NCBI RefSeq assembly: GCF_016463645.1 | Contig: NZ_JAEMQX010000008.1 | Span: 1-64,000 of the forward strand | Direction: 5' to 3' | DNA length: 64,000 nt | Source: Sphingopyxis sp. | GTDB taxonomy: Bacteria; Pseudomonadota; Alphaproteobacteria; Sphingomonadales; Sphingomonadaceae | Part shown: in pieces, positions 33,368 to 52,242 of the stretch | Layout of the letters: each line of letters starts with the position of its first letter | Numbering within the stretch: the stretch's first letter is position 1 | The notes under the pieces: model-generated | Databases searched by the model: none | What the model was told of the DNA's origin: nothing | What the model saw: the letters and a program-made list of their open reading frames with translations, nothing else | Translations under genes and position numbers: made by a program

Positions 33368-34519
33368 TTGACCGAAGTCTATATTTATGACGCGGTGCGC
33401 ACACCGCGCGGCAAGGCGCGGCCTGATGGCGGGCTCGCCGGCCTGGGCCCGCAGGAGCTGGTACGCGGCCAAATGGCGGCGCTCAGCGCCCGCTGCGGCG
33501 ACTTCACGCCCGAGGCGTTGATCCTCGGCTGCGTTACGCAGAGCGGTACACAGGGCGGGCATATCGCGATGCTGGCAAAGTTGCACGCGGGCCTGCCCGA
33601 CGCCTGCGCCGCGCACAGCCTCAACAATTATTGCGCATCGGGGCTGTCGGCGATCGGCCAAGCGGTCGCGAAGGTCGCTAGCGGCGAGATCGGAGTCGCA
33701 CTCGCGGGCGGGGTCGAATCGATGAGTTCGGCGCCCTTTCTGAGCGACCGTGCGGGCTTCTATACCAACGAAGAACTGCCGCCGCGCGCGCGCTTCGTGC
33801 CGCCAGTGCTCGGCGCCGACCGGCTGGCACACGCCGAAGGCATCACCCGCCCCGAACTCGATGCGGTTGCCCTCACCTCGCAGCGGAAGGCGGCGGCGGC
33901 GGAAGCCGATCGGTGTCTGCAGGCCTCGCGCATCGCAACCGGTGCGCTCGCGGGTGAGGAATGCATTCGTCCGCAAACGAGCGCGGAGTCACTCGCCGCT
34001 GTGCCCGCCGCATTTGGCGAACTGCAGGCGCAATATGCCGGCGCGCTCGAAGGCGCGACCTTCGAACCGCTCCACAGCATCGCGCATGCGCCACCGATCT
34101 GCGACGGTGCCGGGCTTGCGTTGGTCGGCGGCGAAGGACTGGGCATCGCCCCCCGCGCCCGAGTGGTCGCTTTTGCCGAGATCGGCGGCGATCCCGCGGC
34201 GTCGCTGACCGCGGGGTTTGCGGCGATGGACAAGGTGCTGACGCGCGCCGGGCTGACGCTGAACGACATGGACCGGATCGAATTCATGGAGGCTTTTGCC
34301 GTTACAATGGCGAAATTCCGGCGCGACCGGGGCGTCGACCCGGCGCGCGTCAACGTGTCGGGAGGGCACCTCGCCAAGGGGCATCCGATGGGCGCCAGCG
34401 GCGCCATCCTGACCTCTACCTTGCTCGATGCACTCGACGCGTGCGACGGGCGGCATGGGTTGGTCGTGCTGACCGGCGCGATGGGCGTCGGCGCGGCGAT
34501 GATCGTCGAGCGGCAATAG
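33368..34519 (+). CDS. Thiolase-family protein with altered active site
   Basis: A 383-residue thiolase-fold protein of the FadA/PhaA type. The nucleophile cysteine is kept (LNNYCASGLSAI, about residue 88), as is the histidine motif KGHPMGASGA. However, the usual NEAFA motif reads MEAFA and the C-terminal CxGGG motif reads TGAMG, so the catalytic proton-shuttling cysteine and the water-binding asparagine are missing. The TTG at 33368 (LTEVYIYDAVRTPRG) directly follows the previous stop and matches the family N terminus, so it is preferred over longer readings. It may be a specialised or non-thiolytic acyltransferase or a partner of the upstream thiolase. It ends the plus-strand run before the B12 leader. 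Confidence 0.85.
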   Translation: MTEVYIYDAVRTPRGKARPDGGLAGLGPQELVRGQMAALSARCGDFTPEALILGCVTQSGTQGGHIAMLAKLHAGLPDACAAHSLNNYCASGLSAIGQAVAKVASGEIGVALAGGVESMSSAPFLSDRAGFYTNEELPPRARFVPPVLGADRLAHAEGITRPELDAVALTSQRKAAAAEADRCLQASRIATGALAGEECIRPQTSAESLAAVPAAFGELQAQYAGALEGATFEPLHSIAHAPPICDGAGLALVGGEGLGIAPRARVVAFAEIGGDPAASLTAGFAAMDKVLTRAGLTLNDMDRIEFMEAFAVTMAKFRRDRGVDPARVNVSGGHLAKGHPMGASGAILTSTLLDALDACDGRHGLVVLTGAMGVGAAMIVERQ

Positions 34520-34582
34520 TCGTTGCGAAATAGCGCGCCTGCGTTATGGCCGACCCGCGCGGGGTTTCCCCGCGCATGATCG

Positions 34583-34772
34583 CGCCGGTGCCCGAAAGGG
34601 TTTAATAGGGAACGCGGTAAGGGGCGATATATCGCACCGAAACCGAGGCTGTCCCTGCAACTGTAAGCGGCGAGCGCGATGCACCGTCCGGGTTTCGACG
34701 CGGACAGCCACTGGGGTCACCTGGGAAGGCGTGCATCGAGCCCTGACCCGCAAGCCAGGAGACCTGCCGGCG
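34583..34772 (+). ncRNA. Cobalamin riboswitch
   Basis: The segment contains the aptamer core: GCCCGAAAGGGTTTAATAGGGAA, then CTGTCCCTGCAACTGTAAGCGG, CACTGG..CCTGGGAAGG and the B12 box GCCAGGAGACCTGCC (about 34754-34768). The P1 ends pair perfectly (CGCCGG 34583-34588 with CCGGCG 34767-34772). AdoCbl binding would repress the B12 operon starting at 34963. A further 190 bases lie between aptamer and cobO and contain a perfect GGCGGC-TGGG-GCCGCC hairpin at 34839-34854, a possible part of the expression platform. Confidence 0.93.
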
Positions 34773-34962
34773 TGGGTCGCTCAATGCCAAGGCCCAGGGA
34801 AAGGCCACGGCACGGAGATTTCCGTCGAGCGACGAACAGGCGGCTGGGGCCGCCTCGGTGCCGGGGTTGCAGGCCATTACGCCACTTGCGACTCCAGCAT
34901 CGGTCGATTGCGTCCGCGCGTCGGCAGGCTCCGCCCTCGTTGCCGGCGTGCGGGGGTTTCCA

Positions 34963-35571
34963 ATGAAGACGCGAACCGACGCCGAACACACGGCGAAAAT
35001 GAAGAAGATCCAGGCAGCGCAGGCGAAGAAGGTCGCGGCCAAGACGGTCGAAAAGGGGCTGGTCATCGTCCACACCGGTCCCGGCAAGGGCAAGACCTCG
35101 GCCGCGCTGGGCATGGCGGTGCGTGCGATCGGGCACGACATGAAGGTCGGCGTCGTTCAGTTCGTGAAGGGCGCGATGACAACGGGAGAAAAAGCGGTGT
35201 TCGACCGCTTCCCCGACCTCATCGAATTCAAGCCGATGGGCGAGGGTTTCACCTGGGACACGCAGGACCGGACGCGCGATATCGCCGTCGCCCGCACCGC
35301 ATGGGAAGAGGTCAAGCGCATGATCGCCGATCCGGGCTATGCGATGGTGATCGCCGACGAACTCAACATCATTCTCCGTTACGACTATCTGCCGGTGAAT
35401 GAAGTGCTCGAAGCGCTCGGCACGAAGCCGCACATGACGCATGTGATCATCACCGGCCGCAACGCGCCCGAGGCGTTGATCGACGCCGCCGACCTCGTCA
35501 CCGAGATGGCGCAGGTGAAGCATCCGTTCCGCGAGCAGAATGTGAAGGCGCAGAAAGGGATCGAGTTCTGA
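34963..35571 (+). CDS. cobO: Cob(I)yrinic acid a,c-diamide adenosyltransferase
   Basis: A 202-residue CobO/BtuR-family corrinoid adenosyltransferase that transfers the adenosyl group of ATP to Co(I) of corrinoids. The P-loop-like ATP site is HTGPGKGKTSAALGMAVRAIG (about 38-58), with the later conserved VQFVKGAMTTGE, FTWDTQDRTRD and VIADELNIILRYDYL. The ATG at 34963 is preferred over a longer open frame because MKTRTDAEHTAKMKK starts the family N-terminal helix. First gene of the riboswitch-controlled operon; its stop overlaps the btuF start (TGATG). Placed ahead of transport genes, it would adenosylate imported cobinamide or cobalamin. Confidence 0.94.
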   Translation: MKTRTDAEHTAKMKKIQAAQAKKVAAKTVEKGLVIVHTGPGKGKTSAALGMAVRAIGHDMKVGVVQFVKGAMTTGEKAVFDRFPDLIEFKPMGEGFTWDTQDRTRDIAVARTAWEEVKRMIADPGYAMVIADELNIILRYDYLPVNEVLEALGTKPHMTHVIITGRNAPEALIDAADLVTEMAQVKHPFREQNVKAQKGIEF

Positions 35572-36425
35572 TGCGGCGGCGCGGCCTTGTGGCGGCGGCC
35601 GCCCTGCTCGGCGGCACGAGCCTCTTGTCGGCTGCCTCCCCCGCTCCGCACGCGAAGGCGCCGGGAGTCCCGCAGCGCATCGTGTCGATCAACCTGTGTG
35701 CCGACCAGCTGGTGCTCGCGCTCGCCGACCGGCAGCAGATCGCCGGGCTGACGAAGAACGCGGCCGACACCGCCATGTCAGGTGAAGCCGCCAAAGCGCG
35801 CGGCATTCCGCTGCTCAGCAATTCGGCCGAACAGATCCTTGCGATCGAACCCGACCTGATCATCGGCATGCCGGCGAGCCGTAGCGCGGCGCTCGCGGCG
35901 CTGCCGAAGCAGGATTATCCGCTGCTCGACCTTTCCACTGCCAACACACTCGACGATATCCACACCTCGATCCGCGAGACGGCGACCGCGGTCGGCCATC
36001 CCGAGCGCGGCACCGCGCTGATCGCGCGGATGCAGCGCGAGCTTGCGGGTCTGGCCAGACCCGGCAAGGGCCGCGTCGCCGCCTATTACCAGCGGCGCGG
36101 CTATATGACAGGCACGGGCACGCTGATCGACGAGCTGATGCGGCGCGTCGGGCTGGTGAACCTCGCGGGCAAGCTCGGCAAGCCGCCGCTGTCGCAACTG
36201 AGTCTCGAGGAAATGGTCGCAGCGAGGCCCGACTTCCTGATCGTCGAGAGCGCAACCGACCTGGTGACCGACCAGGGGAGCGAAATGCTGCATCATCCCG
36301 CGATCAGGGATATTCCGCGCATCAGCGTTCCGCAGGCGTGGACCGTGTGCGGCAGCCCTGCCTACACGCAGGCGGCGCGCAGCATGGCGGCGCAGATCGC
36401 ACGGATCGACAGGAGTCGCTCATGA
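35571..36425 (+). CDS. btuF: Cobalamin/corrinoid ABC transporter periplasmic binding protein
   Basis: A 284-residue class III periplasmic binding protein of the BtuF/FhuD fold, delivering corrinoid to the BtuCD-like complex. Signal peptide MRRRGLVAAAALLGGTSLLSAA is followed by RIVSINLCADQLVLALADRQQIAGLT, the BtuF-type first domain motif, and ILAIEPDLIIGMPASR. The second domain contains VAAYYQRRGYMTGTGTLIDELMRRVGL. The start overlaps the cobO stop and the stop overlaps btuC (ATGA). The riboswitch upstream and the cobO neighbour make cobalamin much more likely than iron-siderophore as ligand, which the same fold can also bind. Confidence 0.88.
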   Translation: MRRRGLVAAAALLGGTSLLSAASPAPHAKAPGVPQRIVSINLCADQLVLALADRQQIAGLTKNAADTAMSGEAAKARGIPLLSNSAEQILAIEPDLIIGMPASRSAALAALPKQDYPLLDLSTANTLDDIHTSIRETATAVGHPERGTALIARMQRELAGLARPGKGRVAAYYQRRGYMTGTGTLIDELMRRVGLVNLAGKLGKPPLSQLSLEEMVAARPDFLIVESATDLVTDQGSEMLHHPAIRDIPRISVPQAWTVCGSPAYTQAARSMAAQIARIDRSRS

Positions 36426-37423
36426 GCCGCTTCGCCCTTCCCCGCTGGTTGCTGATCGCGGCGCTGGCGGCGCTCACGCTGGTCGCGGCCGCCGGATCGC
36501 TGCTGTTCGGCGCGGTTGACCTGTCGGTGGCGCGGCTGCTCGCCGCCGCGAGCGGCGACGGCGACCGGGTCGCGTCGATCATCCTCTTCGACCTGCGCCT
36601 GCCGCGCACCATGCTGGCGCTCGGCGTCGGCGCGATGCTCGGGCTCGCGGGTGCGGCGCTGCAGGGCTATCTGCGCAACCCGCTCGCCGAGCCGTCGGTG
36701 CTCGGCACGTCGAACGCCGCGGCACTGGGCGGGGTCGCGGCGCTCTATTTCGGGATCGCCGAGCTGCACCCGGTGATGCTGCCGCTGCTCGCCACGGGCG
36801 GTGCGCTGCTGTCGCTTGCGCTGCTGTTCATCCTGTCGGGCCGGGCCGAAAGCCCGCTGACCCTGATCCTCGCCGGAATCGCGGTTGGCACGTTGGCAGT
36901 GGCGGGAACGAGCCTCGCGCTCAACCTGTCGCCCAATCCGTTCGCGGCGATGGAGATCATGACCTGGCTGCTCGGCAGCCTTGAGAACCGGTCGTTCGAC
37001 CATGTGTGGATCGCGCTGCCGTGCATCGCGATCGGCGGCGCGATGCTGCTGTGGAACGGACGCGCGCTCGATGCGCTGACGCTCGGCGAGGATGCCGCGC
37101 AGGCGCTCGGTACGGATCTTCGGCGGACGCGGCTCCGGCTGCTGATCGGCACCGCGATCGGAGTCGGCGGCGCGGTCGCGGTGTCGGGGGCGATCGGTTT
37201 CGTCGGGTTGATCGTGCCGCACCTGATCCGTCCGCTCACCGACCGCAGCCCGTCGGCGATCCTGCTTCCCTCGGCGATCGGCGGCGCCGCGCTGCTGACG
37301 CTCGCCGACCTGGGCGTCCGGATCATTCCGACGACGAACGAACTGAAACTCGGCGTGGTTACGGCCTTTCTGGGAGTTCCGGTCTTCCTCCTCCACCTGA
37401 TGCGGGAGCGGCGGCTATGGTGA
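36422..37423 (+). CDS. btuC: Cobalamin ABC transporter permease (FecCD/BtuC family)
   Basis: A 333-residue inner-membrane permease with about ten transmembrane helices, working as a homodimer with the ATPase at 37417. Features of the FecCD/BtuC family are FDLRLPRTMLALGVGAMLGLAGAALQGYLRNPLAEPSVLG near residues 60-100, WLLGSLENRSF, and the coupling region ALGTDLRRTRLRLL ahead of FVGLIVPHLIRPL. The ATG at 36422 overlaps the btuF TGA. Its end overlaps the ATPase start by seven bases. Specificity for corrinoids is inherited from riboswitch and operon context. Confidence 0.92.
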   Translation: MSRFALPRWLLIAALAALTLVAAAGSLLFGAVDLSVARLLAAASGDGDRVASIILFDLRLPRTMLALGVGAMLGLAGAALQGYLRNPLAEPSVLGTSNAAALGGVAALYFGIAELHPVMLPLLATGGALLSLALLFILSGRAESPLTLILAGIAVGTLAVAGTSLALNLSPNPFAAMEIMTWLLGSLENRSFDHVWIALPCIAIGGAMLLWNGRALDALTLGEDAAQALGTDLRRTRLRLLIGTAIGVGGAVAVSGAIGFVGLIVPHLIRPLTDRSPSAILLPSAIGGAALLTLADLGVRIIPTTNELKLGVVTAFLGVPVFLLHLMRERRLW

Positions 37424-38187
37424 GCATCGCCCTGAACCATGTCGGCGTGACGCTCGGCCGCCGCGCCGTCGTGCATGACGTCAGCGCCGCCTTCGGCCCC
37501 GGCACGCTGACCGGGATCGTCGGCCCGAATGGCGCGGGCAAATCGACGCTGGCGCGCGCGATGCTTGCGCTGGTGCCTGCCAGCGGCAGGACAGAGATCG
37601 ACGACATCGACGTGACGGCGATGCCGCGCGGCGAGCTGGCGCGGCGGATTGCCTATGTCCCGCAGGGGCAGACTTTGCACTGGCCGCTGACCGTCGAGCG
37701 ACTCGTCGGGCTTGGGCGCCTGCCGCACCTCGCGCCGATGTCGCGGATCACCGATACCGACACGGCGGCGATCGAGCGCGCGATGGCGCGCGCCGACGTG
37801 CTCGATTTGCGCAACCGGATCGCGACCGAACTGTCGGGCGGCGAACGCGCACGCGTGCTGTTCGCGCGCGCACTCGCGGTCGAGGCGCCGGCGCTGATCG
37901 CCGACGAACCACTCGCAAGCCTCGATCCCGGGCACCAGATCGACGTGATGGAGCTGCTCCACGCCGAAGCGAGAGGCGGCGGGCTGGTGATCGCTGTGCT
38001 GCACGACCTGACGCTCGCGGCGCGCTATTGCGATCGGCTCCTATTGATCAACGGTGGACGCATCATTGCCGACGGCACGCCTGGCGAGGTACTGACCGCC
38101 GAGAGGCTGCGCACGGTTTATGGCATCGACGCAGAGGTAGAGACGGGCGGCGAGTGGCCGACAATCACGCTGTTCGGTCGCGCGTAA
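37417..38187 (+). CDS. btuD: Cobalamin ABC transporter ATP-binding protein
   Basis: A 256-residue ATPase of the BtuD/FecE type. Walker A GPNGAGKST is near residues 35-43, the Q-loop region YVPQGQTLHWPLTVERLV near 80-97, signature LSGGERARV near 137-145, Walker B ALIADEPLASLDPGHQ near 158-173 and the switch histidine in VLHDLTLAARYCD. Start overlaps the btuC 3' end by seven bases. Its TAA stop shares its last A with the ATG of the PhyH-type gene, so that gene is translationally coupled to a transport subunit. Confidence 0.92.
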   Translation: MVSIALNHVGVTLGRRAVVHDVSAAFGPGTLTGIVGPNGAGKSTLARAMLALVPASGRTEIDDIDVTAMPRGELARRIAYVPQGQTLHWPLTVERLVGLGRLPHLAPMSRITDTDTAAIERAMARADVLDLRNRIATELSGGERARVLFARALAVEAPALIADEPLASLDPGHQIDVMELLHAEARGGGLVIAVLHDLTLAARYCDRLLLINGGRIIADGTPGEVLTAERLRTVYGIDAEVETGGEWPTITLFGRA

Positions 38188-38879
38188 TGAGCGCCGAAAC
38201 ACTGTTCGCCGAACAGGGATATGTGGCGGTGCCGCTGTTCGATGCGGCGCAGGTCCGCGCGGCAGCCGATGATATCGCCGAACATATCGATCGCGTGTCG
38301 CGCGCGCTCTATCTGCCCTTCGACCGAAGCTGCCCCGATACGCCGCTGGCCGAGCGGATCGACCGGGTGTTCGCGCACGAACGCAGCGTCGCAAACCTGC
38401 TGCGCGTCGCGATCTGCACCGATGCGCATCGCGGGGCGCGACTGCAGGCGCTCGTCAATGATCCACGATTGATCGAAACCGCCGGGCGGATCGGCGGCCG
38501 CGCCTTGTCGGGAAAGATGGCGCGCGTTCGCGCGAGCATCGCCTGCTTTCCCGAGCATCGCCACGCCTGGCACAGCGACGTCGCACGCGACGACGGCACC
38601 GGATGCGGCAAGGTCGCGGTGACCGCGTGGATCCCGCTGAGCGATGCCGGGCCCGAAAGCGGCGGGCTGGAGATTGCGGCGGGGCGCCAGCCCGCGCCGC
38701 TCGCGAGCGAGGGCGACGATGGTTTCGAAATCCCCGAATGGCGGCTCGCCGGCCTGCCGCGCGTGCAGCCCATATGTCCGGCAGGGACGGTGCTGTTCCT
38801 CGATCGCTTCACCCCGCACCGCACCCTGCCCGCGCGCGCGACACGCTTCGCGCTCGTGGTGTGGATGAAGGCGGCCTAG
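38187..38879 (+). CDS. PhyH-type Fe(II)/2-oxoglutarate dioxygenase at the end of the B12 operon
   Basis: A 230-residue protein of the phytanoyl-CoA dioxygenase-like family, non-haem iron enzymes that hydroxylate small molecules using 2-oxoglutarate and O2. The facial triad is visible: H129 and D131 in AWHSDV and H211 in FTPHRT, with an arginine at 217 or 220 for 2-oxoglutarate. The double-stranded beta-helix core reads VTAWIPLSDAGPESGGLEIAAG and VLFLDRF. No signal peptide. It overlaps btuD by one base and is the last gene under the cobalamin riboswitch; its TAG overlaps the converging cupin-gene stop. Family recognition is good, but substrate and any role in corrinoid metabolism are unknown. 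Confidence 0.78.
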   Translation: MSAETLFAEQGYVAVPLFDAAQVRAAADDIAEHIDRVSRALYLPFDRSCPDTPLAERIDRVFAHERSVANLLRVAICTDAHRGARLQALVNDPRLIETAGRIGGRALSGKMARVRASIACFPEHRHAWHSDVARDDGTGCGKVAVTAWIPLSDAGPESGGLEIAAGRQPAPLASEGDDGFEIPEWRLAGLPRVQPICPAGTVLFLDRFTPHRTLPARATRFALVVWMKAA

Positions 38880-39886
38880 CCGCTCCCGCCGCTGCGGCAA
38901 AAGCCGACGACATAGTCGATGATCATCCGGTCGCGCTGCGGCGACGGCGGGCCGAGCACCCCCTGCGCATGGGGCGGCAGATGGTCGACCGCATGGGTCG
39001 CGCCCTCGCCGAAGACATAATGGTCGAACCAGGTGCGCCATGCCTCGCGTTCGCTGTCGGGAAGCTCGCGGATCGAGTGCATCGCGAGCATCAGCGCGGC
39101 GAAGGGAAAGCGGTCCTGCCGCTGTCCGAACCAATAGTTGACGAGGACATTGAGCGCGCCCTCGCTGCGCACATGGTGCCACCACATCGGCGGCATGTAG
39201 ATCGCATCGCCCGGTACGAGCTCGGCGACCATCTTGTGCCGCTCGGCCTCGGCATAGAGCGGGTAGCGCGCATGGTCGGGATGGTCGGGATCGACCATGC
39301 TCGTCGGCTGGCCCGCGATCGTGCGCTCGACGGGGCCGACATAGAGGTTCGATATCTGCCCGGGCGGAAAGAGCGTGAAGCGGCGGCACCCCGCGACGAC
39401 GACGGCGATGTTCGCCGCCATGTCGTAATGCGGCGCGATGCGGCTGGCGTTGCCGACCCAGATGCGCGGATCGACGCCGGTGTCGACCGGCAGCGGATTT
39501 TCGGCGGCGAAGTTCGCGACGCTTTCGGGGGTCGGGGTCGATCCGGCATAGAGGCTCGGCGCATCGGCGGTGCCGCGCAGCGCAAGCAGCCGCTCGACGA
39601 GCGCTGTCATCGGCATCTTTTCGCTGCGGAAATTCACACTGCGCATGTCGTCGGTGTAGAAATGGCGCCCGCCGGTTTCGGGCGGGCCGACCAGCACGGT
39701 AAGCGGCTTGCCGTTGTCGCGCGCCGCGAGATAGCCGGCGATCGCCTCGTCTCCCGCACCCGCTGCGGCGACCGCGGGCCAGTTCGCCGCGATGCCGCGG
39801 ACAATGACGGGACGGTCGGCCGCCGCGATCGCGCGCGCGATCGCGGCACGGTCGCTGCCCGATATCTCTTCCAGCGTGTCCGTCAC
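38876..39886 (-). CDS. Cupin-8 / JmjC-like dioxygenase-family protein
   Basis: A 336-residue cytoplasmic protein of the cupin_8 (JmjC-like, factor-inhibiting-HIF) family. It has a double-stranded beta-helix with HxD at H153/D155 (APHYDMAANIAVV) and a distal histidine at 237 or 238 (MWWHHVRSEG), consistent with Fe(II)/2-oxoglutarate use. The central YVGPVERTIAGQPTSMVDPDHPDHARYPLY loop is frequent in members found beside TonB receptors and halogenases in sphingomonads and Caulobacter. Here it lies just downstream of GH20 on the same strand (17-base gap), so it is probably part of the chitin/GlcNAc locus. Its biochemical role is not established. Confidence 0.8.
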   Translation of the reverse strand: MTDTLEEISGSDRAAIARAIAAADRPVIVRGIAANWPAVAAAGAGDEAIAGYLAARDNGKPLTVLVGPPETGGRHFYTDDMRSVNFRSEKMPMTALVERLLALRGTADAPSLYAGSTPTPESVANFAAENPLPVDTGVDPRIWVGNASRIAPHYDMAANIAVVVAGCRRFTLFPPGQISNLYVGPVERTIAGQPTSMVDPDHPDHARYPLYAEAERHKMVAELVPGDAIYMPPMWWHHVRSEGALNVLVNYWFGQRQDRFPFAALMLAMHSIRELPDSEREAWRTWFDHYVFGEGATHAVDHLPPHAQGVLGPPSPQRDRMIIDYVVGFCRSGGSG

Positions 39887-39903
39887 TCCGTCTCCCCCTG
39901 CCC

Positions 39904-42462
39904 TCAGCGGGCGGGTTCGACCCGCACCGTCCGGCTGGCGCGCTTGCCGTCGGCCGAGCGGCTGCGCAGATCGACCGCGCCGTCGACCGCGACCGGCCCG
40001 GCATAACGCGTCCAGGCGCCATCACCGATACGATATTCGATCGCGGTGCCGGGGAACATGCTGTTCGCCTCCAGCTTGCCGCCGACTATGCACGCGCCCG
40101 GCGGCGCGACGCGGTAGGCGACGCCGATCCTTTCCAGCATCGGGAATTGCGCGGCGACGCGGCCGGCGAAATCCTGCCAGCCCGTCTTGAGCTTTGCGGC
40201 GTCGACGCGGCTGTCGCCCCATTCGTATGTCGCGCCGGCCTGATAGGCGGGAGTCCATGGCGCCGGAGCCCACGCCCGCTCGGCGAGTGCGAGCAGGCGC
40301 GGGAAGAGCATATAATCGACCTGCGCGTCGGTGCGGATCGTCTCGCTCCAGAGCTGGGCCTGCAGTCCGGCGACGCGGTGACCGGGCTGGAGAGCGGGCT
40401 TGTCCTCGATCGACTTGCCCTCGGCGTGGATGTTGCGGATCGTCGCCGCGTTGGCGGGCAGATTGCCCGGCATGAAGCCATAGACCTGATACGGATCGAC
40501 GCCGCGCGAAGCCCAGTCGTAGCCGCCTTCGTCGGGGTGCGGCGCATAGGGCATGTCGAAATAGCCGAGGTCGGGGATCGACAGCACGGCGTCCCAGCCG
40601 CGGTTCATCTGGTCGTGCGCCTCGCGGATCGCCCCGGTGTGGAGCACGCCCCAGATATTGGTCTGCACCATATGCGGCTCCTTCGGCATTGCGGCCGTTT
40701 CGGTGTGACCCATGCCGTCGCTCCAGCCGCCTGCGCGCAGTCCCTTGGCGGCGAGGCTGGCGGTCACGCGTTCGATGAAACGCGGGGTCAGCTTGCCCGC
40801 ATCGCCGCCATTCCCGGCAATCATCGTCTTGCACGCGGGCGACTTGACCCACGCGCCCGCGGTCTCGTCGGCGCCGAGGTGGAAGGTTCTGAGCGGAACC
40901 CCGGCCTGCCGGTGCATCGCGGCCAGCGCGTCGACGACGGTATCGACGAAGCGGTAGGTCGCGGGCAAGCAGACGTTGAGCGTATTGTCGCTGTAATTCT
41001 GGATGCTGCGATATTCGGTCGTGTCGGCGGGGTCGATCAGCCGATATTCGTCGGCCTCAGCCTTCTTGCCCGCGGCGGACAGCCGCGCATGACGGAGCTC
41101 CATCGCCTTGATCGCCGCGCGGCTGTGGCCCGGCATGTCGATCGACGGGATCACCTCGATCTGCCGCGCCGCCGCTGCCCGGACGATCGCGACATAGTCG
41201 GCGGTGGAGAGATAGCCGTTGACGCCGCCGACGCCGTCGGGCCCCGCGCCGAGCTGCGGCAGGATGCAGGTCTGCTCGGACGGGTCATGGCAGCGTTTCG
41301 AGCCGATCTCGGCGAGTTCGGGGAGCGCCGGAATCTCGATACGCCAGCCTTCATCCTCGGCGAGGTGGAGATGGAGCTTGTTGAGCTTGTAGCTCGCCAT
41401 CGCCTCGATGAGCTTCAGAATCTCGTCGCGGCCGTGGAAGTTTCGGCCGAGGTCGATGTGGAGACCGCGGAAGCCATATTCTGGGGCGTCCTCGACGCGG
41501 AGCGGGGTGAGCTTGCCCTTCTCGAAGGCCGCCTGCTGCGCGAGCGAGCGCAGCGCGTGGCTGGCCCCCGCAGCGTCGTGTGCGACAATCGCTATGCCCG
41601 AAGGCTTGGCATCGAGGATATAGGATTCGGGCTTCGCCGAAGCAACGGGATCGATACGGATCGTCAGCGGAAGCGCGCCTTCGGGAACACCCAGCGCGGC
41701 AAGCGCGGGGGCGACCGCACTACGTTCGACACCATTCAGGGTGAGCGCAACGCCGCGAGTCAGGTCGATCGCCTTGCCCTCGCCCTGCACCGCCTTTGCC
41801 GGCTTCGGCAGGATGACGACACCCTTCGCTTCGGGCGCGAGCCGCGCGGCCTGCACATCGAAAGCGCGTTCGGCGGTGAGCCAGCGCGTCTTGTCGGCGT
41901 CGCTCTTGGTCGCGAGCTTCGCCTCGTCGGTCATCGGCGCCACGAAGGGCAAGATTTCGAGGCCGGTTTCAGGGTCGATCACGGGGCGCGTCGCGGCAAT
42001 CGTGCGCGGTTTGAGCCCGTCGGCCACGAGATAGGCATTGGGCATGCCGAACGCCTTCGAGAAGTTCGAGCCGATGCCCCAAAGCCTGATCTCATGCCTG
42101 GCGCCGGGACGCAGCGTTGCGCCGGGCTTGAGCGTCAGTTGCTGGACGTCGCCATTGATCAGCCGGTGCACGAAGATGTCGCTTTCGACGAGCGGTAGCC
42201 GGTTCACGAAGCTGAAATAGAGCGCGAACCCCTTGGTCGGCACGTGCGCGGGAAGCGTTTCGGGCACGGTGAGCGTGATCGTCGTGAGGAAACAGCCGTC
42301 GATCCCCGCGGGGCAGGTCGGGCCGTTGTCGACCATCGTGAGGCGGTAGCCGAGCGTGTCGGCGAGGCGGTCGAGCGACGCTTGCGGTCCCGTTTCGGCC
42401 GCCGGCGCCTGCGGCGCGGCGAGCGCCGCCATCGCCATCGTGATCCACCCCGCAGCCCGCAT
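39904..42462 (-). CDS. GH20 beta-N-acetylhexosaminidase (chitobiase type), exported
   Basis: An 852-residue enzyme removing terminal GlcNAc from chitooligosaccharides by substrate-assisted catalysis. Signal peptide MRAAGWITMAMAALAAPQAPAAE, an N-terminal carbohydrate-binding CHB/GH20b region, then the TIM barrel from about residue 325 with FRGLHIDLGRNFHG, KLNKLHLHLAEDEGWRIEIPALPEL, EVIPSIDMPGHSRAAI, and the catalytic Asp-Glu pair in FHLGADETAGAW. A C-terminal beta domain (IEYRIGDGAWTRYAG) fits the chitobiase group. The ATG at 42462 has GGGAGA upstream and is preferred over a TTG at 42483. Divergent from the GH18 gene across 99 bases containing a TGGTAT element. Probably periplasmic or outer-membrane. 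Confidence 0.92.
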   Translation of the reverse strand: MRAAGWITMAMAALAAPQAPAAETGPQASLDRLADTLGYRLTMVDNGPTCPAGIDGCFLTTITLTVPETLPAHVPTKGFALYFSFVNRLPLVESDIFVHRLINGDVQQLTLKPGATLRPGARHEIRLWGIGSNFSKAFGMPNAYLVADGLKPRTIAATRPVIDPETGLEILPFVAPMTDEAKLATKSDADKTRWLTAERAFDVQAARLAPEAKGVVILPKPAKAVQGEGKAIDLTRGVALTLNGVERSAVAPALAALGVPEGALPLTIRIDPVASAKPESYILDAKPSGIAIVAHDAAGASHALRSLAQQAAFEKGKLTPLRVEDAPEYGFRGLHIDLGRNFHGRDEILKLIEAMASYKLNKLHLHLAEDEGWRIEIPALPELAEIGSKRCHDPSEQTCILPQLGAGPDGVGGVNGYLSTADYVAIVRAAAARQIEVIPSIDMPGHSRAAIKAMELRHARLSAAGKKAEADEYRLIDPADTTEYRSIQNYSDNTLNVCLPATYRFVDTVVDALAAMHRQAGVPLRTFHLGADETAGAWVKSPACKTMIAGNGGDAGKLTPRFIERVTASLAAKGLRAGGWSDGMGHTETAAMPKEPHMVQTNIWGVLHTGAIREAHDQMNRGWDAVLSIPDLGYFDMPYAPHPDEGGYDWASRGVDPYQVYGFMPGNLPANAATIRNIHAEGKSIEDKPALQPGHRVAGLQAQLWSETIRTDAQVDYMLFPRLLALAERAWAPAPWTPAYQAGATYEWGDSRVDAAKLKTGWQDFAGRVAAQFPMLERIGVAYRVAPPGACIVGGKLEANSMFPGTAIEYRIGDGAWTRYAGPVAVDGAVDLRSRSADGKRASRTVRVEPAR

Positions 42463-42501
42463 CAAATTTCTCCCGCTCGACAATTTGTATCTGATTTGTC
42501 A

Positions 42502-42520
42502 TGTGGTATCGGGTAGGTCA
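42502..42520. promoter_or_regulatory. Candidate GntR-type (NagR/DasR-like) element in the GH20/GH18 divergent region
   Basis: TGTGGTATCGGGTAGGTCA carries the TGGTAT half-site that resembles dre-type sites of NagR/DasR regulators (ATTGGTATAGACC-like). It sits between the two divergent chitin-degrading genes. The other half is not clear, so confidence is low. Confidence 0.3.
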
Positions 42521-42561
42521 ACGCCTTTCGGCTTGGCCGGAATTGAGGGAAAAACTGAGAA

Positions 42562-43605
42562 ATGACGGATATTCGCGCTTTTCGCCTCATCGCGTCAATT
42601 CTGATTGGTTTTACATTAGTATTGTCTCTTTCCGCCCGGGCGGACGAGCGGCGTCCCGTTGTGGTCGGCTATCTCGCCGCGTTCAAGGGGCTCGACCTGT
42701 CGATCGCGCGCACCGACCTTTCGGCCTTCACCCATTACAACCTGTCCTTCGCCAACCCCGACGCGGACGGGCGCTTCACCCGCGAGGGACGAATGACGTG
42801 CATGGGTGACGAGACTGGCGCCAACCTGTCAGTCGAGGCGCTGCGAAAGACGGTGACGCGATTGCGGGCGAACGGCGCGAAGGTGCTGATTTCGACCGCG
42901 GGCGGAGTGATTCCAGGCTGCTCGGGCGACTGGAGGGCGCTGCTAACGCCCCAGCGACGCGCGGCGACGGTCGCGGCGCTCGTCGAAATGGCCGACACGC
43001 TCGGACTCGACGGGGTCGATATCGACATCGAGGGGCAGTTGCTGACCGAGATCGACCGCGCGGGCGACTATACGCCGTTCATCGCGGCGCTGTCCGAAGC
43101 GATGAAGGCACGCGGCAAGCTGCTGACCTGCTCCACCGCATCCTATGACGGCGGGATGATCCCGGTGGACTCGATCGCCTGGTTCGACTTGGTCAACGTG
43201 ATGTCCTATGACGCGATCGGGCCGAGTTGGGGTCAGGCAGGCACCGAGCACAGCAGCTATGCGATGGCGGCACGCGATCTGGACCTGTGGCTTGCACGCG
43301 GCGTCGCGCGCGAGCGACTCATACTCGGCGTACCCTTTTATGGATATGGATTCGGCGGCGAGAAGGAAAATTGGTCCTATCGCGACCTTGCGAGCGCACA
43401 GGGCATAAATGCGACCAAAGCCGATGTGATCGGCGAACTGTGCGGCGGGTGTCGCTACATCACGCACAACAGCCCCGCGACGATCGAGAAAAAATCGCGG
43501 TTGGCCGCAGAAAAGGCAGGCGGCGTGATGGTATGGGAATTGTCGCAGGACAGTCCCGATCACGCGCTGACCAAGGCAATCCGGCGGGGGCTTTCGCGCG
43601 AATAA
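42562..43605 (+). CDS. GH18 chitinase-like enzyme, exported
   Basis: A 347-residue family 18 glycosidase, small for a chitinase and without a chitin-binding domain. A signal peptide ends near LSARA (residue 27). The TIM-barrel begins VVVGYLAAFKG, has KVLISTAGG in the second strand motif (SxGG region) and the catalytic DxxDxDxE motif DGVDIDIE at 150-157, with Glu157 as proton donor. Strand six VNVMSYD and late VMVWELSQD are also typical. All catalytic residues are intact. It is divergent from GH20 and upstream of a GntR-type regulator. Likely substrate is chitin or chitooligosaccharide, although some GH18 relatives act on other GlcNAc polymers. Confidence 0.9.
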   Translation: MTDIRAFRLIASILIGFTLVLSLSARADERRPVVVGYLAAFKGLDLSIARTDLSAFTHYNLSFANPDADGRFTREGRMTCMGDETGANLSVEALRKTVTRLRANGAKVLISTAGGVIPGCSGDWRALLTPQRRAATVAALVEMADTLGLDGVDIDIEGQLLTEIDRAGDYTPFIAALSEAMKARGKLLTCSTASYDGGMIPVDSIAWFDLVNVMSYDAIGPSWGQAGTEHSSYAMAARDLDLWLARGVARERLILGVPFYGYGFGGEKENWSYRDLASAQGINATKADVIGELCGGCRYITHNSPATIEKKSRLAAEKAGGVMVWELSQDSPDHALTKAIRRGLSRE

Positions 43606-43627
43606 GTCGCAACAAGGTTGACGCGAG

Positions 43628-43640
43628 GATACCAATGCAA
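43628..43640. promoter_or_regulatory. TACCAATGCA element upstream of the GntR gene
   Basis: GATACCAATGCAA shares TACCAATGCA with the element before the deaminase gene at 53543-53552. The shared ten bases in two leaders of the same locus suggest a regulator half-site. It is read here as a NagR/DasR-like motif. Confidence 0.35.
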
Positions 43641-43653
43641 CACATGCTGCGCT

Positions 43654-43678
43654 AAGGCTGGTCTTATCGACCGGCCTT
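43654..43678 (+). repeat. Inverted repeat between GH18 and the GntR regulator (terminator or operator)
   Basis: AAGGCTGGTC (43654-43663) and GACCGGCCTT (43669-43678) pair over ten positions with one G-T pair and a 5-base loop. The core GGTC..GACC recalls the dre sites of NagR/DasR-family regulators, so it may be an autoregulatory operator; it could also terminate GH18 transcription. It lies 28 bases before the likely regulator start. Confidence 0.5.
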
Positions 43679-43706
43679 GCCGGGGAAATCGTGTGGAGCA
43701 TCATCC

Positions 43707-44444
43707 TTGTCACTGATCGAACGCGTGGGTCCGCTCCAGAAGGACGATCCGACACCGCTTTACCTGCAGCTGCAGAAAATCCTGCGCGACGCGATCGAAG
43801 GGCAGATCGTGAAGGCCGAGGAGGCCATCCCGACCGAGCGCGACCTGGCCGAGGAATTCGACGTCTCGCGTATCACGGTGCGCAAGGCGATCGACGGGCT
43901 GGTCGGCGACGGGATCGTCACGCGGCGTCGCGGCGCCGGAACCTTCGTCACGCGGCCGCGGGTCGAGAAGAGCTTTTCGAAACTCACCTCCTTTTCCGAA
44001 GACATGGTGTCGCGCGGGCGCAAGCCGCACAGCAAATGGGTGAGCAGGACCACGGGTGCCGTGACGCCGGAGGAAGCGCTGTCGCTCGGCCTGTCGCCGG
44101 GCTCGCTGGTCTACCGTTTCCACCGCATCCGCTACGCCGACGACACCTCGATGGCGCTCGAGATTGCCACGATCCCCGCATATTGCCTCCCCTCGGTCGA
44201 CGCCGTGGGCGCGTCGCTCTATGAGGCGCTGGAAGCCGCCGGGCATTTGCCCGTGCGCGCCCTGCAGCGGCTTCGGGCGATCGCGGCAACAGCCGAGCAG
44301 GCCGAGATGCTGGAGATCGAGCCGGGCACGCCCGGCCTTTTCATCGAGCGGCGGGGCTTTCTGGCCGACGGGCGCACCGCCGAATTCACGCAGAGCTTCT
44401 ATCGCGGCGACGCCTATGACGTGGTGGCGGAGCTGAACAGCTAA
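43707..44444 (+). CDS. GntR/HutC-family regulator, probably of GlcNAc catabolism
   Basis: A 245-residue transcription factor with an N-terminal GntR winged helix (PLYLQLQKILRDAIEGQIVKAEEAIPTERDLAEEFDVSRITVRKAI, about 18-63, then GDGIVTRRRGAGTFV) and a C-terminal UTRA effector domain typical of HutC/NagR proteins, which bind glucosamine- or GlcNAc-6-phosphate in known members. The TTG at 43707 is chosen because the upstream stretch of the frame overlaps an inverted repeat and this codon gives LSLIERVGPLQ with GGAG nearby. Location between chitinase and GlcNAc genes makes it the best candidate regulator of the locus. Its stop overlaps the converging halogenase stop. Confidence 0.88.
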   Translation: MSLIERVGPLQKDDPTPLYLQLQKILRDAIEGQIVKAEEAIPTERDLAEEFDVSRITVRKAIDGLVGDGIVTRRRGAGTFVTRPRVEKSFSKLTSFSEDMVSRGRKPHSKWVSRTTGAVTPEEALSLGLSPGSLVYRFHRIRYADDTSMALEIATIPAYCLPSVDAVGASLYEALEAAGHLPVRALQRLRAIAATAEQAEMLEIEPGTPGLFIERRGFLADGRTAEFTQSFYRGDAYDVVAELNS

Positions 44445-45928
44445 GCTAGCCGGCGCAGAAATTCCACATGCGGGGGCAGTTCGGCGAGCTGCTCCGCGAC
44501 CCGGCCGCGCAACGCCGCCAAGCGCGAAGCGAGGTCGGCGCCGGACAGGCCGTCGGCGATCGGATGCCAGCTCTGCGGCCACACCCCCTGCCCGGTCAGC
44601 ACCGCATACCAGTTCGTCGGCCCGAACAGGTCGCCGGGTTCGAAGAGGATATTGCCGGTGGCGCGGAACGCTTCGATCCGTTCGGCGAGCGTATCGGGCA
44701 TGCCCGCCGCGGCGACGTCGCGCCAGAAGCGCGTATCCTCGCGATTCGCGAGCGCATAATGTGCGATCACGAAATCGCGGACCGTACGATATTCGTGCAG
44801 GGCATCACGGTTGAAGCGCGCAACGATACGGGGATCGATCGTGTCGCGCGGCAGCAGTGCCAGTAACCGGATGATCGTTGTCTGGATGAGATGGATCGAG
44901 GTCGATTCCAAGGGTTCAAGAAAGCCGCCCGCGAGCCCGATCGCGACACAGTTACGATTCCAGATCGCTTTGCGATGCCCCGCGACGAAGCGGAGCCGGT
45001 TGGGATCGGCGAGCGGCGCGTCGGGAAGGCGTGAACGGAGCAGCGCCTCAGCCTTGTCGTGCTCCAGATGCGCGCTCGAATAGACATAGCCATTGCCCTC
45101 GCGGTGCTGGAGCGGGATGCGCCATTGCCAGCCGGCCTCGCGTGCGGTCGAGCGGGTGAAGGGTGCGGGTTCGGCCGCGCCATGCGAGGGCATCGCCACC
45201 GCGCTGTCGCACGGCAGCCAGTGACTCCATTCGCTATAACCCGTCCGGAGCGCGCCTTCGATGAGCAGCCCGCGAAAGCCCGAGCAATCGACGAAGAGAT
45301 CGCCCTCCATCGTGCGGCCATCATCCATCCCAAGCCCGGTGATGAAGCCGTCCTCAGGATCGAGACGGACGTCGGCGACCTTGCCCTCGATCCGCGCGAC
45401 GCCCTTGTCCTCAGCATAGTTGCGCAGGAAGCGAGCGTAGGCGGCAGCATCGAAATGGACCGCGTGATGCACGGGGCCGTGGCGCGTCGCGGGGGCAAAC
45501 CGGCCGGCCCGCGCGGCCATCGTTTCGAGATTATAGGGGCCGTGATCGGCGTCGCCGCCCGTGGCCAGATGGCGGAGCCAATGATGGTGAAAATGGATGC
45601 CCGACATTTCGATGCCGAGATAGCCGAACGGGTGGAAATAGCGGTGCCCCGCCCCGCCCCAGCCCGCGAACTCGATACCGAGCTTGATCGTCCCGTGCGT
45701 CGCCCGCAGGAACTCGGCCTGATCGAGGCGGAGATAGCGGTTGAATTCGTGGATCGGGGGCACCGTCGCCTCGCCGACGCCGACGGTTTCGATCGCCTCG
45801 GATTCGACGAGAGTGATGCGGTGCGGTTGCCCCGCAAGCGCGCGTCCAAGCGCCGCAGCGGTCATCCAGCCCGCGCTGCCGCCGCCGACGATGACGATGC
45901 GCCGGACGGCGCGCGCGCGTGCGCTCAT
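44441..45928 (-). CDS. Flavin-dependent tryptophan halogenase-family protein (third of three)
   Basis: A 495-residue protein of the tryptophan halogenase family. The FAD-binding GGGSAGW is at residues 15-21 (IVIVGGGSAGWMTAAALG), followed by VESEAIETVGVGEAT, the catalytic lysine in GTIKLGIEFAGWG, the WxWxIP signature in GWQWRIPLQHR and the EPLEST motif (FLEPLESTSIHLIQ). All classical halogenase residues are present. The ATG at 45928 overlaps the stop of the middle paralogue (ATGA). Such proteins accompany TonB receptors in sphingomonads, Caulobacter and Xanthomonas carbohydrate loci; their natural substrate is unclear. Halogenation is family knowledge, not demonstrated here. Its stop overlaps the converging GntR gene. 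Confidence 0.9.
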   Translation of the reverse strand: MSARARAVRRIVIVGGGSAGWMTAAALGRALAGQPHRITLVESEAIETVGVGEATVPPIHEFNRYLRLDQAEFLRATHGTIKLGIEFAGWGGAGHRYFHPFGYLGIEMSGIHFHHHWLRHLATGGDADHGPYNLETMAARAGRFAPATRHGPVHHAVHFDAAAYARFLRNYAEDKGVARIEGKVADVRLDPEDGFITGLGMDDGRTMEGDLFVDCSGFRGLLIEGALRTGYSEWSHWLPCDSAVAMPSHGAAEPAPFTRSTAREAGWQWRIPLQHREGNGYVYSSAHLEHDKAEALLRSRLPDAPLADPNRLRFVAGHRKAIWNRNCVAIGLAGGFLEPLESTSIHLIQTTIIRLLALLPRDTIDPRIVARFNRDALHEYRTVRDFVIAHYALANREDTRFWRDVAAAGMPDTLAERIEAFRATGNILFEPGDLFGPTNWYAVLTGQGVWPQSWHPIADGLSGADLASRLAALRGRVAEQLAELPPHVEFLRRLA

Positions 45929-47388
45929 CCGCGCATCCGCCCGAGCGCTTCGGCGTGCGTCTCCATCGCGTGGACATCGCCCGCGATGGCGCGGAGCTGG
46001 CGCTGGAATTCGGTCATCAGCACCCGATCCTCGACCAGCAGCGCCTGCGGGTCGAAGCTGCGCGGGATCACGCCATGCCCCGCCATCACGAGCGCCCAAC
46101 TATCCTCGACGTGCGCCTCGTGATTGAAATGCGCGAACATGCCGCGCGCGGCAAAAAGGTCTATCTTGGCAGTGAGCTCGGTCGAGACCGGCGCGGCGCG
46201 CGCGGCATCCCAGAAGGGCTCGGTGCGGGTATTGAGGCGGAAATGCTGCGCGGTAAAGTCGATCACGCGCGCCCGGGTGCCCGCCATTTCCTCACTGTAG
46301 ATATCAGCCTCCGGCATCGCAGCGCGATCGATCGGCCACAAGAGGACGAGCTGCGCTATGCCAAGCTGGAGCAGCAGCAGCTCGGCACCATCGAGCGGTG
46401 GCGCGGTACCCGATGCCGGGCCCAGAGCGACGACATTGCCGACCCACGCGCGCGCGCGCGCGGTGGCGGCGAGCGACGCTGGCGGTGCGGCGTCGACAGG
46501 GCGTCCAAGGGCGGCGGCCAATGCGACGGGGGCGTCAGCGTCGGGCAACAACCGGCCGTCATAGGCGAATTCGATTGCGGTCCGGTTCGCGAGCGGGATC
46601 ATCGTCAGCCAGCCGGCGGGGTGCGCGGCAACGCGGCTGTAGAGCGGCAGCGGATCGAAGGCAGACGTCGAGGCGCGGATGATGCGGTCGCAAAAGCCGG
46701 CGCGCACGGCGCGGTCGTCAGGATCGACGCGGGCGATCAGCGCGCCGTGGACATCGACGAACAAGTCGGCATCCAGCACTTCACCGTAGGCGAGTTCGAT
46801 CCGATCGAGGCCCGATCCGCCGACATGGGGAATAGCTTCCGCCCCGGCAAGGATGCGGACATCGGCCTGCTCGCACGCCGCGCGCAGCAGCCCGGTATAG
46901 CCGGCTGCGTCGAGGTGCCAGCCCGCCTTGACCGCCTGCCGCGTCGCGGTCTCGTGCGGCACGCCGGTGCGGCCCTGCTTGGCGGCGACGGCAGCGAGGC
47001 AGAAATCCTCAAGCCCGACGCGCAGCCCCGCTTGTCGCGCACGTGTCCAGTGCTGAACGAAGGGCAGGTCGGCGAAGGCGCTGCCCGCGTCGCCATAAGC
47101 ATGGAGAAAGGCGTCGTCGCCGCCTGACCAGCCGGCGAACTGTTGGCCCATGGCGATTGTCGCGGCGGCATGGCGGACCAGCTCGGTTCCTTCGATGCCG
47201 AGCAGACGGTGAAAGGTCGCAAGGTCGGGCGGCGCGATCAGCGCGGCGTGCGGTACGGGCACCTCGCCGGTGTCGACCCAGACGATATCGGTACCCAGCC
47301 GCGAATAGGCGCGGCAAACCGCGAGCGCAGCCATCGCCGCTGCAATTCCGCCGCCATAGACGACGACGCGCTGCACCGAATTGCTCAT
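45925..47388 (-). CDS. Degenerate halogenase paralogue lacking catalytic residues
   Basis: A 487-residue protein aligning along its whole length with the flanking halogenases but with the signatures changed. The FAD motif is GGGIAAA rather than GGGSAGW, the GVGEAT segment is replaced by GEVPVPHAAL, the catalytic lysine position in TIKLGIEFAGW is alanine (TIAMGQQFAGW), the second Trp of WxWxIP is Thr (GWLTMIP) and the EPLEST glutamate region reads PPLDGA. The gene is intact and overlaps both neighbours by ATGA, so it is translated. It may be a non-catalytic partner, a flavin-less scaffold, or an enzyme with another chemistry. Confidence 0.8.
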   Translation of the reverse strand: MSNSVQRVVVYGGGIAAAMAALAVCRAYSRLGTDIVWVDTGEVPVPHAALIAPPDLATFHRLLGIEGTELVRHAAATIAMGQQFAGWSGGDDAFLHAYGDAGSAFADLPFVQHWTRARQAGLRVGLEDFCLAAVAAKQGRTGVPHETATRQAVKAGWHLDAAGYTGLLRAACEQADVRILAGAEAIPHVGGSGLDRIELAYGEVLDADLFVDVHGALIARVDPDDRAVRAGFCDRIIRASTSAFDPLPLYSRVAAHPAGWLTMIPLANRTAIEFAYDGRLLPDADAPVALAAALGRPVDAAPPASLAATARARAWVGNVVALGPASGTAPPLDGAELLLLQLGIAQLVLLWPIDRAAMPEADIYSEEMAGTRARVIDFTAQHFRLNTRTEPFWDAARAAPVSTELTAKIDLFAARGMFAHFNHEAHVEDSWALVMAGHGVIPRSFDPQALLVEDRVLMTEFQRQLRAIAGDVHAMETHAEALGRMRG

Positions 47389-48890: not shown

Positions 48891-48957
48891 GGCGACCTAG
48901 CTTAGCGCAACAGAAAGCAGGCGCCAGCCCCGTGACAGGGCCGACACCGCTCCCCCT

Positions 48958-51900: not shown

Positions 51901-52242
51901 GAAGTGCGACGTGTCATCGGTACCGGCGAAACGGATCACGGTGATGCCGGGCACGCGCTGGAGCGCCTCGGCGACCGACTTGTCGGGGAAGGACCCGATG
52001 TCCTCGGCGGTGATCGAATCGACGACCGTGTCGGCGTTACGTTTCCGGTTCTGCGCTGATTCGAGATTGGCGCGAATACCGGTAACGACGATGTCGTCCG
52101 CATTTTCCTCGTCGGCCGATGCCGGCGCAGGGCTTTCCTGCGCCGCGGCGGGAAGGATCATCGCGCTCGAAAGCGCCGCTCCGCAGATGCTGTGAAGCAG
52201 ACCTCGGCGAATCCCGTTTGTCTTGGCAGGCCCCTTAACCAT
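48958..52242 (-). CDS. TonB-dependent receptor of the chitin/GlcNAc locus
   Basis: A 1094-residue outer-membrane transporter. A signal peptide (MVKGPAKTNGIRRGLLHSIC... ending AAAQ) is followed by the TonB box DDIVVTGIRANLESAQNRKRNADTVVDSITAEDIGSFPDKSVAEALQRVPG, the form typical of sphingomonad/Xanthomonas sugar receptors. The large barrel then ends GVRLNF with terminal phenylalanine. The ATG at 52242 is preferred over the longer frame because it has GGGGGGAA upstream and begins the signal peptide. It is divergent from NagX-like gene 52417 with a regulatory palindrome between them. Expected role is uptake of chitooligosaccharides or GlcNAc, as in Xanthomonas and Caulobacter. Confidence 0.92.
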   Translation of the reverse strand: MVKGPAKTNGIRRGLLHSICGAALSSAMILPAAAQESPAPASADEENADDIVVTGIRANLESAQNRKRNADTVVDSITAEDIGSFPDKSVAEALQRVPGITVIRFAGTDDTSHFSAEPSGVIIRGLNQVRSEFNGRDTFSANSSRGLSWQDISPELLGGIDTYKNQTADLIEGGIAGTVNLRTRLPFDQDGRLISISIKNTYGDIAKKSTPEISGIISNRWETGIGEIGLMLNGAYSHAITASQGVQFDRMGIFDGAFDTDGDGALNAGKTYVPGGIYLRENEYDRKRYGVAAAFQWRSTDGSMELTGQYNRSQYNNSWREYSVLSAALIPDLYGKPSDFVYGDALQVSPLAGVANPYATGAVRDRFTFDDDGNFLSGWWTQPTGYHGDFPGDNAGYGLNEDGEPFFAQCYSWEASCASPRKAPHVDTAANALRNKQITQDFGLNLRWDVNDRLRVTLDGQYVDASVSNYNASVTTRSYANTFVDLTGEYPRLEFIPTVANNINLSLGGLNNANNYHYYAVTDHTEDSDGKEVALRADVEYDVDSGWLDAIKVGARYADRDQTVRWGAYNWANISNNWTNTQASYFNVDKPVYGVNGYQTHTFDRSFFAGSQTNQHSFVFFNMDKLVNREDLASTLGRPTIGVGEYYPVCSGAGYRAGETIEGDYGCYLPSEVHKVSERTVAAYAMAKFGGDGLAIGGIGISGNLGVRLVWTRDKTQGATTFANPFTPDQLVCDRSTPPPPATPTATAGCVITAAEIAFNDGGIVADTSNDNHFHALPSFNVKFDLTDKLVSRFAYSRAMSRPDFGLLRNYLTINRLSPNLNDPSDPNVTRNAAGEAIAYDWQYTGTSGNPGLKPMTADQFDLTMEYYIAPAASVTVTGFYKKFYDYIQAGQFNLSITNNGVTEDVRLNRPVNGDGAKIYGFEAAFQTFFDFLPAPFDGFGIQTNYTYVKNSGIETVNLTNETAGGTAGGGITYENSTVKPDALEGISKHSYNLVGMFEKGPVSARVAYNWRSKYLVTAIDCCVGFPIWQKSTGYLDASLRLRATDRLEFVLEGTNLLGTDTVLMQQVDSDGLLKPNAWFKNDRRYQFGVRLNF

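Follow-up and report, generated by a model that had tools for sequence, protein, structure and literature searches.

A PhyH-type oxygenase gene conserved at the end of a cobalamin-riboswitch operon in sphingomonads: a putative accessory of B12 salvage

What is an oxygenase gene doing at the end of an operon for the uptake of vitamin B12? The question is raised by a stretch of DNA from Sphingopyxis sp. (assembly GCF_016463645.1, contig NZ_JAEMQX010000008.1, positions 1 to 64,000 of the forward strand), which we call the window; all coordinates given here refer to this 64-kb window. In it, a cobalamin riboswitch precedes cobO, the genes btuF, btuC and btuD of a presumed B12 importer and, directly behind btuD, a gene for a PhyH-type Fe(II)/2-oxoglutarate (2OG) oxygenase, here called phyH. 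The position of phyH at the end of the B12 operon is real and is conserved within one family. We tentatively read the gene as encoding an accessory oxygenase of B12 salvage, putatively acting on salvaged corrinoids or on their lower-ligand side. Namely, the genetic evidence puts phyH in the uptake-salvage unit, and the chemistry is what the predicted fold suggests.

Conservation of phyH behind btuD

Could the arrangement be a quirk of a single strain? Among the 80 Sphingopyxis genomes of our genus set, phyH is clearly present (E 1e-60 or better) in 22, and 23 have a match at E 0.001; two weak matches, one in G012 and a second one in G070, were left out of the 22. In all 22 genomes the gene lies directly 3' of btuC-btuD, phyH being split over two contigs in G068 and running into a contig end, with an internal stop, in G066. 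A scan of named genomes, which overlaps this set, gave 22 loci, including ones from Sphingopyxis, Sphingomonas leidyi and S. kyeonggiensis; btuD adjoins phyH in 21 of them, eight from Sphingomonas (two near-identical), and the remaining locus holds the second half of a contig-split gene. The wider searches of family, class and phylum drew on an even genome sample with at most 7 candidates scored per genome among the matches listed, in which relatives can be missed. Within the family, 9 of the 397 genomes searched gave a match, namely 2 of the genus, 5 with clear homologues outside it and 2 with weak ones (G297 and G172). phyH adjoins btuD in three of the five clear cases (G328, G166 and G139), and not in G291 or in G087, where, judged by eye, it lies among TonB-receptor genes. 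At the level of the class, 21 of 385 genomes gave a match (E 0.001), and at that of the phylum 6 of 398 (E 1e-6), the genome of the window being among them each time. Beyond the family the matches are only weak, the best (E 1.6e-12, in G624) lying beside an apparent sugar ABC transporter; no cobalamin riboswitch was found in any of the 12 regions fetched around class-search matches, and no phyH match in the plasmids searched. A preliminary description of this locus had suggested looking for btuD-phyH pairs elsewhere. With such pairs found in all 22 genus genomes that clearly have phyH, in Sphingomonas and in other genera, confinement to one strain is not borne out, and we reject the single-strain quirk.

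The junction between the two genes is as described earlier: the single base A38187 is common to the btuD stop and the phyH start, and the junction reads TAATG. A stop/start overlap is found at all 28 btuD-phyH junctions compared (drawn from 18 of the 22 genus genomes, from 7 loci of Sphingomonas and from 3 others), as NTGA in 27 of them and as TAATG in the window. We predict that phyH is carried on one message with btuD and that the two are translationally coupled, the coupling being suggested by the overlap. The gene 3' of phyH runs convergent, and phyH is therefore the final gene of the apparent unit; with the RF00174 riboswitch upstream, this agrees with its earlier placement as the last gene behind a B12 riboswitch. 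No terminator-like site on the + strand and no sigma-70-promoter-like site was found in 34400-39000, a weak test with shuffle means of 2.0 and 0.5, respectively.

Has phyH been inherited together with the importer genes? Across phyH-bearing loci (26 for each gene), median pairwise dN/dS is 0.259 for phyH, 0.253 for btuD, 0.267 for btuF, 0.192 for btuC and 0.123 for cobO, and phyH is under purifying selection similar to that on btuD. What is more, phyH distances follow those of btuC (r 0.927) and btuD (r 0.933; Mantel test on 26 loci, 0/2000 permutations), which supports inheritance with btuCD. A near copy of L042 (L043) and the repeat fetches L116, L117, L120, L121 and L122 were dropped from the dN/dS, tree, distance, junction and cobT counts; also dropped were L050 and L052 (cut genes), L065 and L067 from dN/dS, L050 and L052 from the distances, and L066 from the cobT tree test.

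These results bear on the possibility that phyH is a hitchhiker, that is, the gene of a general small-molecule hydroxylase fixed by chance behind btuD in an ancestor, with no role in B12 metabolism. Its patchy presence would suit such an origin, as would the replaced metal ligands of two distant copies, the G291 and G087 copies that lie outside the B12 cluster, and the further members of the PhyH family matched in the genome of the window (all discussed below). However, the overlap has been retained at every junction compared, selection is purifying as on btuD, and the gene order has been kept across genera while both flanks were rearranged. We consequently consider a chance origin improbable.

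The protein, its putative role and the alternatives

The window PhyH matches PF05721 with E 4e-4 and 21.1 bits, slightly under the cut-off of 22. The orthologues at L042, L063 and L065 (75%, 68% and 58% identical to it) pass this cut-off with 26.8-29.6 bits, and the distant copies at L066 and L067 give no PF05721 match at E 0.01. No NCBIfam model matches the window PhyH at E 0.1, the BluB model TIGR02476 included, and the CbiZ domain PF01955 is not among its Pfam matches at E 0.5. The residues H129, D131, H211 and R220 are invariant in all 18 aligned genus sequences, in agreement with the intact H129-x-D131 and H211 triad of the preliminary description; R220, which we take to be the arginine that binds 2OG, after the distal histidine, is also invariant in all 19 wider sequences. 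An AlphaFold2 model of moderate quality (mean pLDDT 71.4, residues 127-135 and 137-140 below 50) shows the double-stranded beta-helix of the PhyH type; in a fold search with it, 494 of 1000 re-aligned PDB chains reached Z >= 8. The top match is SnoN (Z 13.5, rmsd 3.6, 176 aligned), with GriE (Z 13.2), the proline hydroxylase H11 (12.9), PtlH (12.4) and human PHYH (2a1x, 11.9) further down; identity to the solved chains compared is 10-22%. Such a fold and such residues would suit Fe/2OG catalysis, which we predict for PhyH.

Could PhyH instead be a protein hydroxylase, or an oxygen or iron sensor, that modifies the transporter or a protein of the regulon? By sequence (phmmer), its best match among solved structures is indeed the prolyl hydroxylase EGLN2 (E 3.6e-4). 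However, this match covers mainly residues 190-227, and the fold search puts small-molecule enzymes at its top; we regard this alternative as very unlikely.

How might an oxygenase serve B12 salvage? At low B12, the riboswitch would permit expression of the operon, BtuFCD would import corrinoids, and CobO would adenosylate them. PhyH, translated next after BtuD from the shared message, would act in the cytosol just after import and would oxidise (hydroxylate, demethylate or oxidatively cleave) some imported corrinoid or lower-ligand part, so that the product fits either the endogenous assembly of the nucleotide loop by cobT-cobS or the enzymes of the cell. In favour of this reading are the conserved place behind btuD, the overlapping junctions, the second riboswitch with salvage genes that follows phyH in relatives, the selection and distances that resemble those of btuD, and, in the genus, the restriction of phyH to genomes with cobT. 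The original idea that PhyH modifies imported corrinoids or their side groups is plausible: the part of it that stands is a real gene of the 2OG-oxygenase type that lies behind a cobalamin riboswitch and shares its inheritance with btuCD, and the corrinoid substrate stays putative. One can also imagine a more specific version, in which PhyH would be the first O2- and 2OG-dependent cobamide-remodelling enzyme, oxidatively altering or removing, on cobamides taken up by the cell, their lower ligand or one of the side groups of the corrin. It would thereby do for aerobic sphingomonads that have no CbiZ what CbiZ and CbiR do in other organisms, and would feed CobT and CobS where BluB is missing. 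This version we hold to be decidedly improbable.

That said, a number of observations weigh against a role in B12 salvage. To begin with, phyH is patchy: for 48 loci placed on a tree of btuC and btuD (tree method 'quick', with a midpoint root for drawing), parsimony requires 12 phyH changes, at least 5 of them forced by supported branches. Since the deepest branches of this tree carry phyH, we prefer repeated loss to gain, and it is likely, if not proven, that phyH was anciently present and was repeatedly lost while btuCD was kept. With this apparent loss beside a retained btuCD, we take phyH to be an accessory and not a part of the importer. The association with cobT, in itself a point in favour of a salvage role, is weakened by descent. 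Namely, in the genus genomes, to which this profile is confined, cobT occurs in all 22 with phyH vs 23 of the 58 without (Fisher 2.7e-7, a test that ignores descent), and the tree holds only 3 independent cobT-differing pairs, in which phyH differs in the same direction in 2 or 3 and never in the opposite one (sign test, p 0.25). Moreover, of the 33 genomes that lack phyH and whose btuC reaches 70% identity or more, 16 retain cobT, so salvage genes persist without phyH. Individual loci add to this. In G166, phyH (L064:7350-7976) has an ATGA junction and then, about 20 codons in, a frameshift within a run of C, which is either real or a sequencing error. In G328, G166 and G139, btuF is opposite to btuCD, so that phyH is not simply behind a riboswitch; upstream lie a cobW-like gene, a large cobN-like gene (names by eye) and cobO. 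In G291, phyH (58% identical) lies outside the B12 cluster, beside leuCD, HMG-CoA-lyase-like and CaiB-type genes, and the B12 cluster is present without phyH. The metal triad departs from the rule in two of the 19 wider sequences, with R for H129 in L066 (HSD to RSD) and Q for H211 in L067. Finally, other PhyH-family genes are common in the window's genome (7 matches in a whole-genome search at E 0.001, the window PhyH itself not among these), and B12-deficiency enzymes, too, can stand under the control of a riboswitch.

The two copies with a replaced metal ligand (L066:7394-8071 and L067:7315-7992) are distant ones, of which that at L066 still adjoins btuD; judged from these replacements, they are possibly non-catalytic descendants.

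The last of the points above leads to the main rival, and a serious one: PhyH may be a B12-deficiency enzyme that acts on a non-corrinoid metabolite and so bypasses or relieves a B12-dependent step, in the manner of riboswitch-controlled B12-independent isozymes. We know of no case in which a 2OG oxygenase takes the place of a B12-dependent step, which counts against this proposal. In its favour, the nearest folds (SnoN, GriE, H11 and PtlH) are those of small-molecule PhyH enzymes, the patchiness would suit an accessory bypass, and the neighbours of phyH in G291 are the best lead to a non-corrinoid role. Besides genes for synthesis and transport, riboswitch regulons do hold isozymes of B12-dependent enzymes (PMC3766115). 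That said, there is no link with the classic bypass gene metE, which occurs in 8 of the 22 genomes with phyH vs 20 of the 58 without. What is more, one would expect a bypass gene to stand more often in a separate riboswitch unit; in several genera, phyH instead sits behind btuD, near genes of uptake and of salvage. On balance, this rival strikes us as unlikely. As for the window's strain, its genome (94.8% complete) gives no metE match at E 1e-50, and it probably depends on B12 for methionine, to judge from its gene content.

The same genus profiles, which covered btuC, cobT, BluB, CbiZ and metE, bear on the lower ligand. CbiZ was found in 0 of the 80 genomes (5 of 14 controls were positive). 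BluB is above its cut-off in 5 of the 80, 1 of the 22 with phyH and 4 of the 58 without, and was counted by this cut-off only, weaker matches at E 0.001 being present in all 80 genomes and in all 14 controls. The 40 genomes with cobT and without BluB divide into 21 with phyH and 19 without. Given this split, a role of phyH as a BluB substitute is unsupported, and making dimethylbenzimidazole by a 2OG oxygenase is chemically unobvious.

Operon features and surrounding genes

Table 1. Features of the riboswitch operon in the window
Feature	Position	Strand	Evidence or remark
Cobalamin riboswitch aptamer, RF00174	34570-34785	+	cmscan 96.3 bits, cut-off 31.5, E 9.6e-23
Leader, riboswitch to cobO	34786-34962	+	Receptor gene of many relatives absent at this spot
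cobO, cob(I)yrinic acid a,c-diamide adenosyltransferase	34963-35571	+	PF02572, 226 bits; TIGR00708, 236 bits
btuF, periplasmic binding protein of presumed B12 ABC importer	35571-36425	+	PF01497 (Peripla_BP_2), 68 bits
btuC, FecCD-type permease	36422-37423	+	PF01032, 277 bits
btuD, ABC ATPase	37417-38187 (stop TAA 38185-38187)	+	PF00005 (ABC_tran), 95 bits
phyH, PhyH-type Fe(II)/2-oxoglutarate oxygenase gene, 230 aa	38187-38879 (ATG 38187-38189)	+	PF05721, fold, residues

The Pfam models for the products of cobO (CobA_CobO_BtuR), btuF, btuC and btuD all pass their cut-offs, and cobO, the corrinoid enzyme within the operon, is above the cut-offs of both TIGR00708 and NF004637. The NCBIfam B12 equivalog models for BtuF and BtuC score below their own cut-offs, as does the top NCBIfam description of the btuD product, 'corrinoid ABC transporter ATPase'. 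Because the BtuF model is below its cut-off, the B12 specificity of the btuF product rests on the riboswitch and cobO. The leader matches sequences of L118, L037, L095 and others on both flanks of their TonB-dependent receptor gene (blastn), and this gene appears to have been cleanly deleted between riboswitch and cobO in the window's lineage. It is likewise missing before cobO from the layouts L033-L036, L039 and L051.

What follows phyH in its relatives? A scan for second riboswitches covered 9 loci, the other layouts showing genes only, as called by a simple codon-score method; in 6 of the 9, a second cobalamin riboswitch starts within 60 bases of the phyH stop. At L042, L045, L046 and L047, where both riboswitches were scanned, the first unit consists of riboswitch, TonB receptor, cobO, btuF, btuC, btuD and phyH, and the second of riboswitch, TonB receptor, a 180-183-aa protein, DUF1636, cobT, cobC, cobS and cobD; the longer stretches L114-L117 and L120 continue with cbiB, cobQ and cobP. 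At L099 the salvage unit is intact and phyH is missing. The window's genome has two cobalamin riboswitches in total, the one on contig C221 heading genes for a receptor and for this uncharacterised protein, then DUF1636, cobT, cobC, cobS and cobD. The protein between TonB receptor and DUF1636-cobT in this second unit (L141:7991-8533, 181 aa, with homologues forming a cluster of 19) has no Pfam match at E 1e-5 and looks membrane-like by eye; it is another uncharacterised B12-linked gene.

Downstream of the window's operon, 38876-52161 holds the convergent cupin_8 gene and a GH20 hexosaminidase (both by Pfam) and, further on and by eye, a chitinase-like, a GntR-like, three tryptophan-halogenase-like genes and a large TonB-receptor-like gene. 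This looks like a region for the use of chitin or GlcNAc, unrelated to phyH. A link of phyH with the cupin_8 gene was considered and rejected, as many loci have phyH without that gene next to it and others have it beside btuD without phyH. Elsewhere in the genus, G032 carries, in addition to the phyH operon, an apparent de novo B12 cluster (L173 and L174, on G032:C12) with its own riboswitches and with btuCD-like, cobN-like and bluB genes, named by eye. The cluster ends near an integrase-like gene and was perhaps recently acquired; equal BluB and cobT scores are seen in G029 and G031.

Relation to known systems

To our knowledge, no known B12 pathway needs an Fe/O2-using oxygenase of the PhyH type. 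The preliminary description had said the same of the known salvage steps, and full-text searches over the main texts of open papers gave no description linking PhyH or phytanoyl-CoA dioxygenase with a cobalamin riboswitch, btuC or a B12 ABC-transporter operon. The available excerpts of PMC6970198, PMC3766115 and PMC9600662 name no such oxygenase; the one paper found to mention a dioxygenase, a cobalamin riboswitch and btuD together (PMC2864759) is a genome paper.

Why would such a gene matter? Microbial communities are shaped by the trade in B12, and by what means scavengers put foreign corrinoids to use is still an open matter. The presence of phyH in B12 operons of several genera hints at an unrecognised step in the use of scavenged B12; a conserved oxygenase in an uptake-salvage unit would mean either a chemical step not known before or a novel way of responding to B12 deficiency. 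In addition, the B12-operon context offers a handle on the function of a clade of orphan PhyH proteins.

Among known systems, the B12 unit of Sphingomonas haloaromaticamans, as far as the excerpts of PMC6970198 go, similarly has a riboswitch, btuC, btuD, cobO and a second riboswitch upstream of btuB; it differs in having bluB and a hypothetical gene before btuC, and phyH goes unmentioned in them. With the PhyH/phytanoyl-CoA dioxygenase family (PF05721), the window PhyH shares the fold, the HxD...H triad and the C-terminal arginine, but it is small and divergent and is set in a B12-uptake context. BluB, the oxygen-dependent synthase of the lower ligand, is alike in using oxygen and stands beside cobO and cobT in apparent de novo clusters of the genus; it is a flavin destructase, nitroreductase-like. 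CbiZ and CbiR, which remodel cobamides, are not oxygenases. With these two enzymes, PhyH would have in common the role of fitting salvaged cobamides to the cell, provided that it is an accessory oxygenase of B12 salvage.

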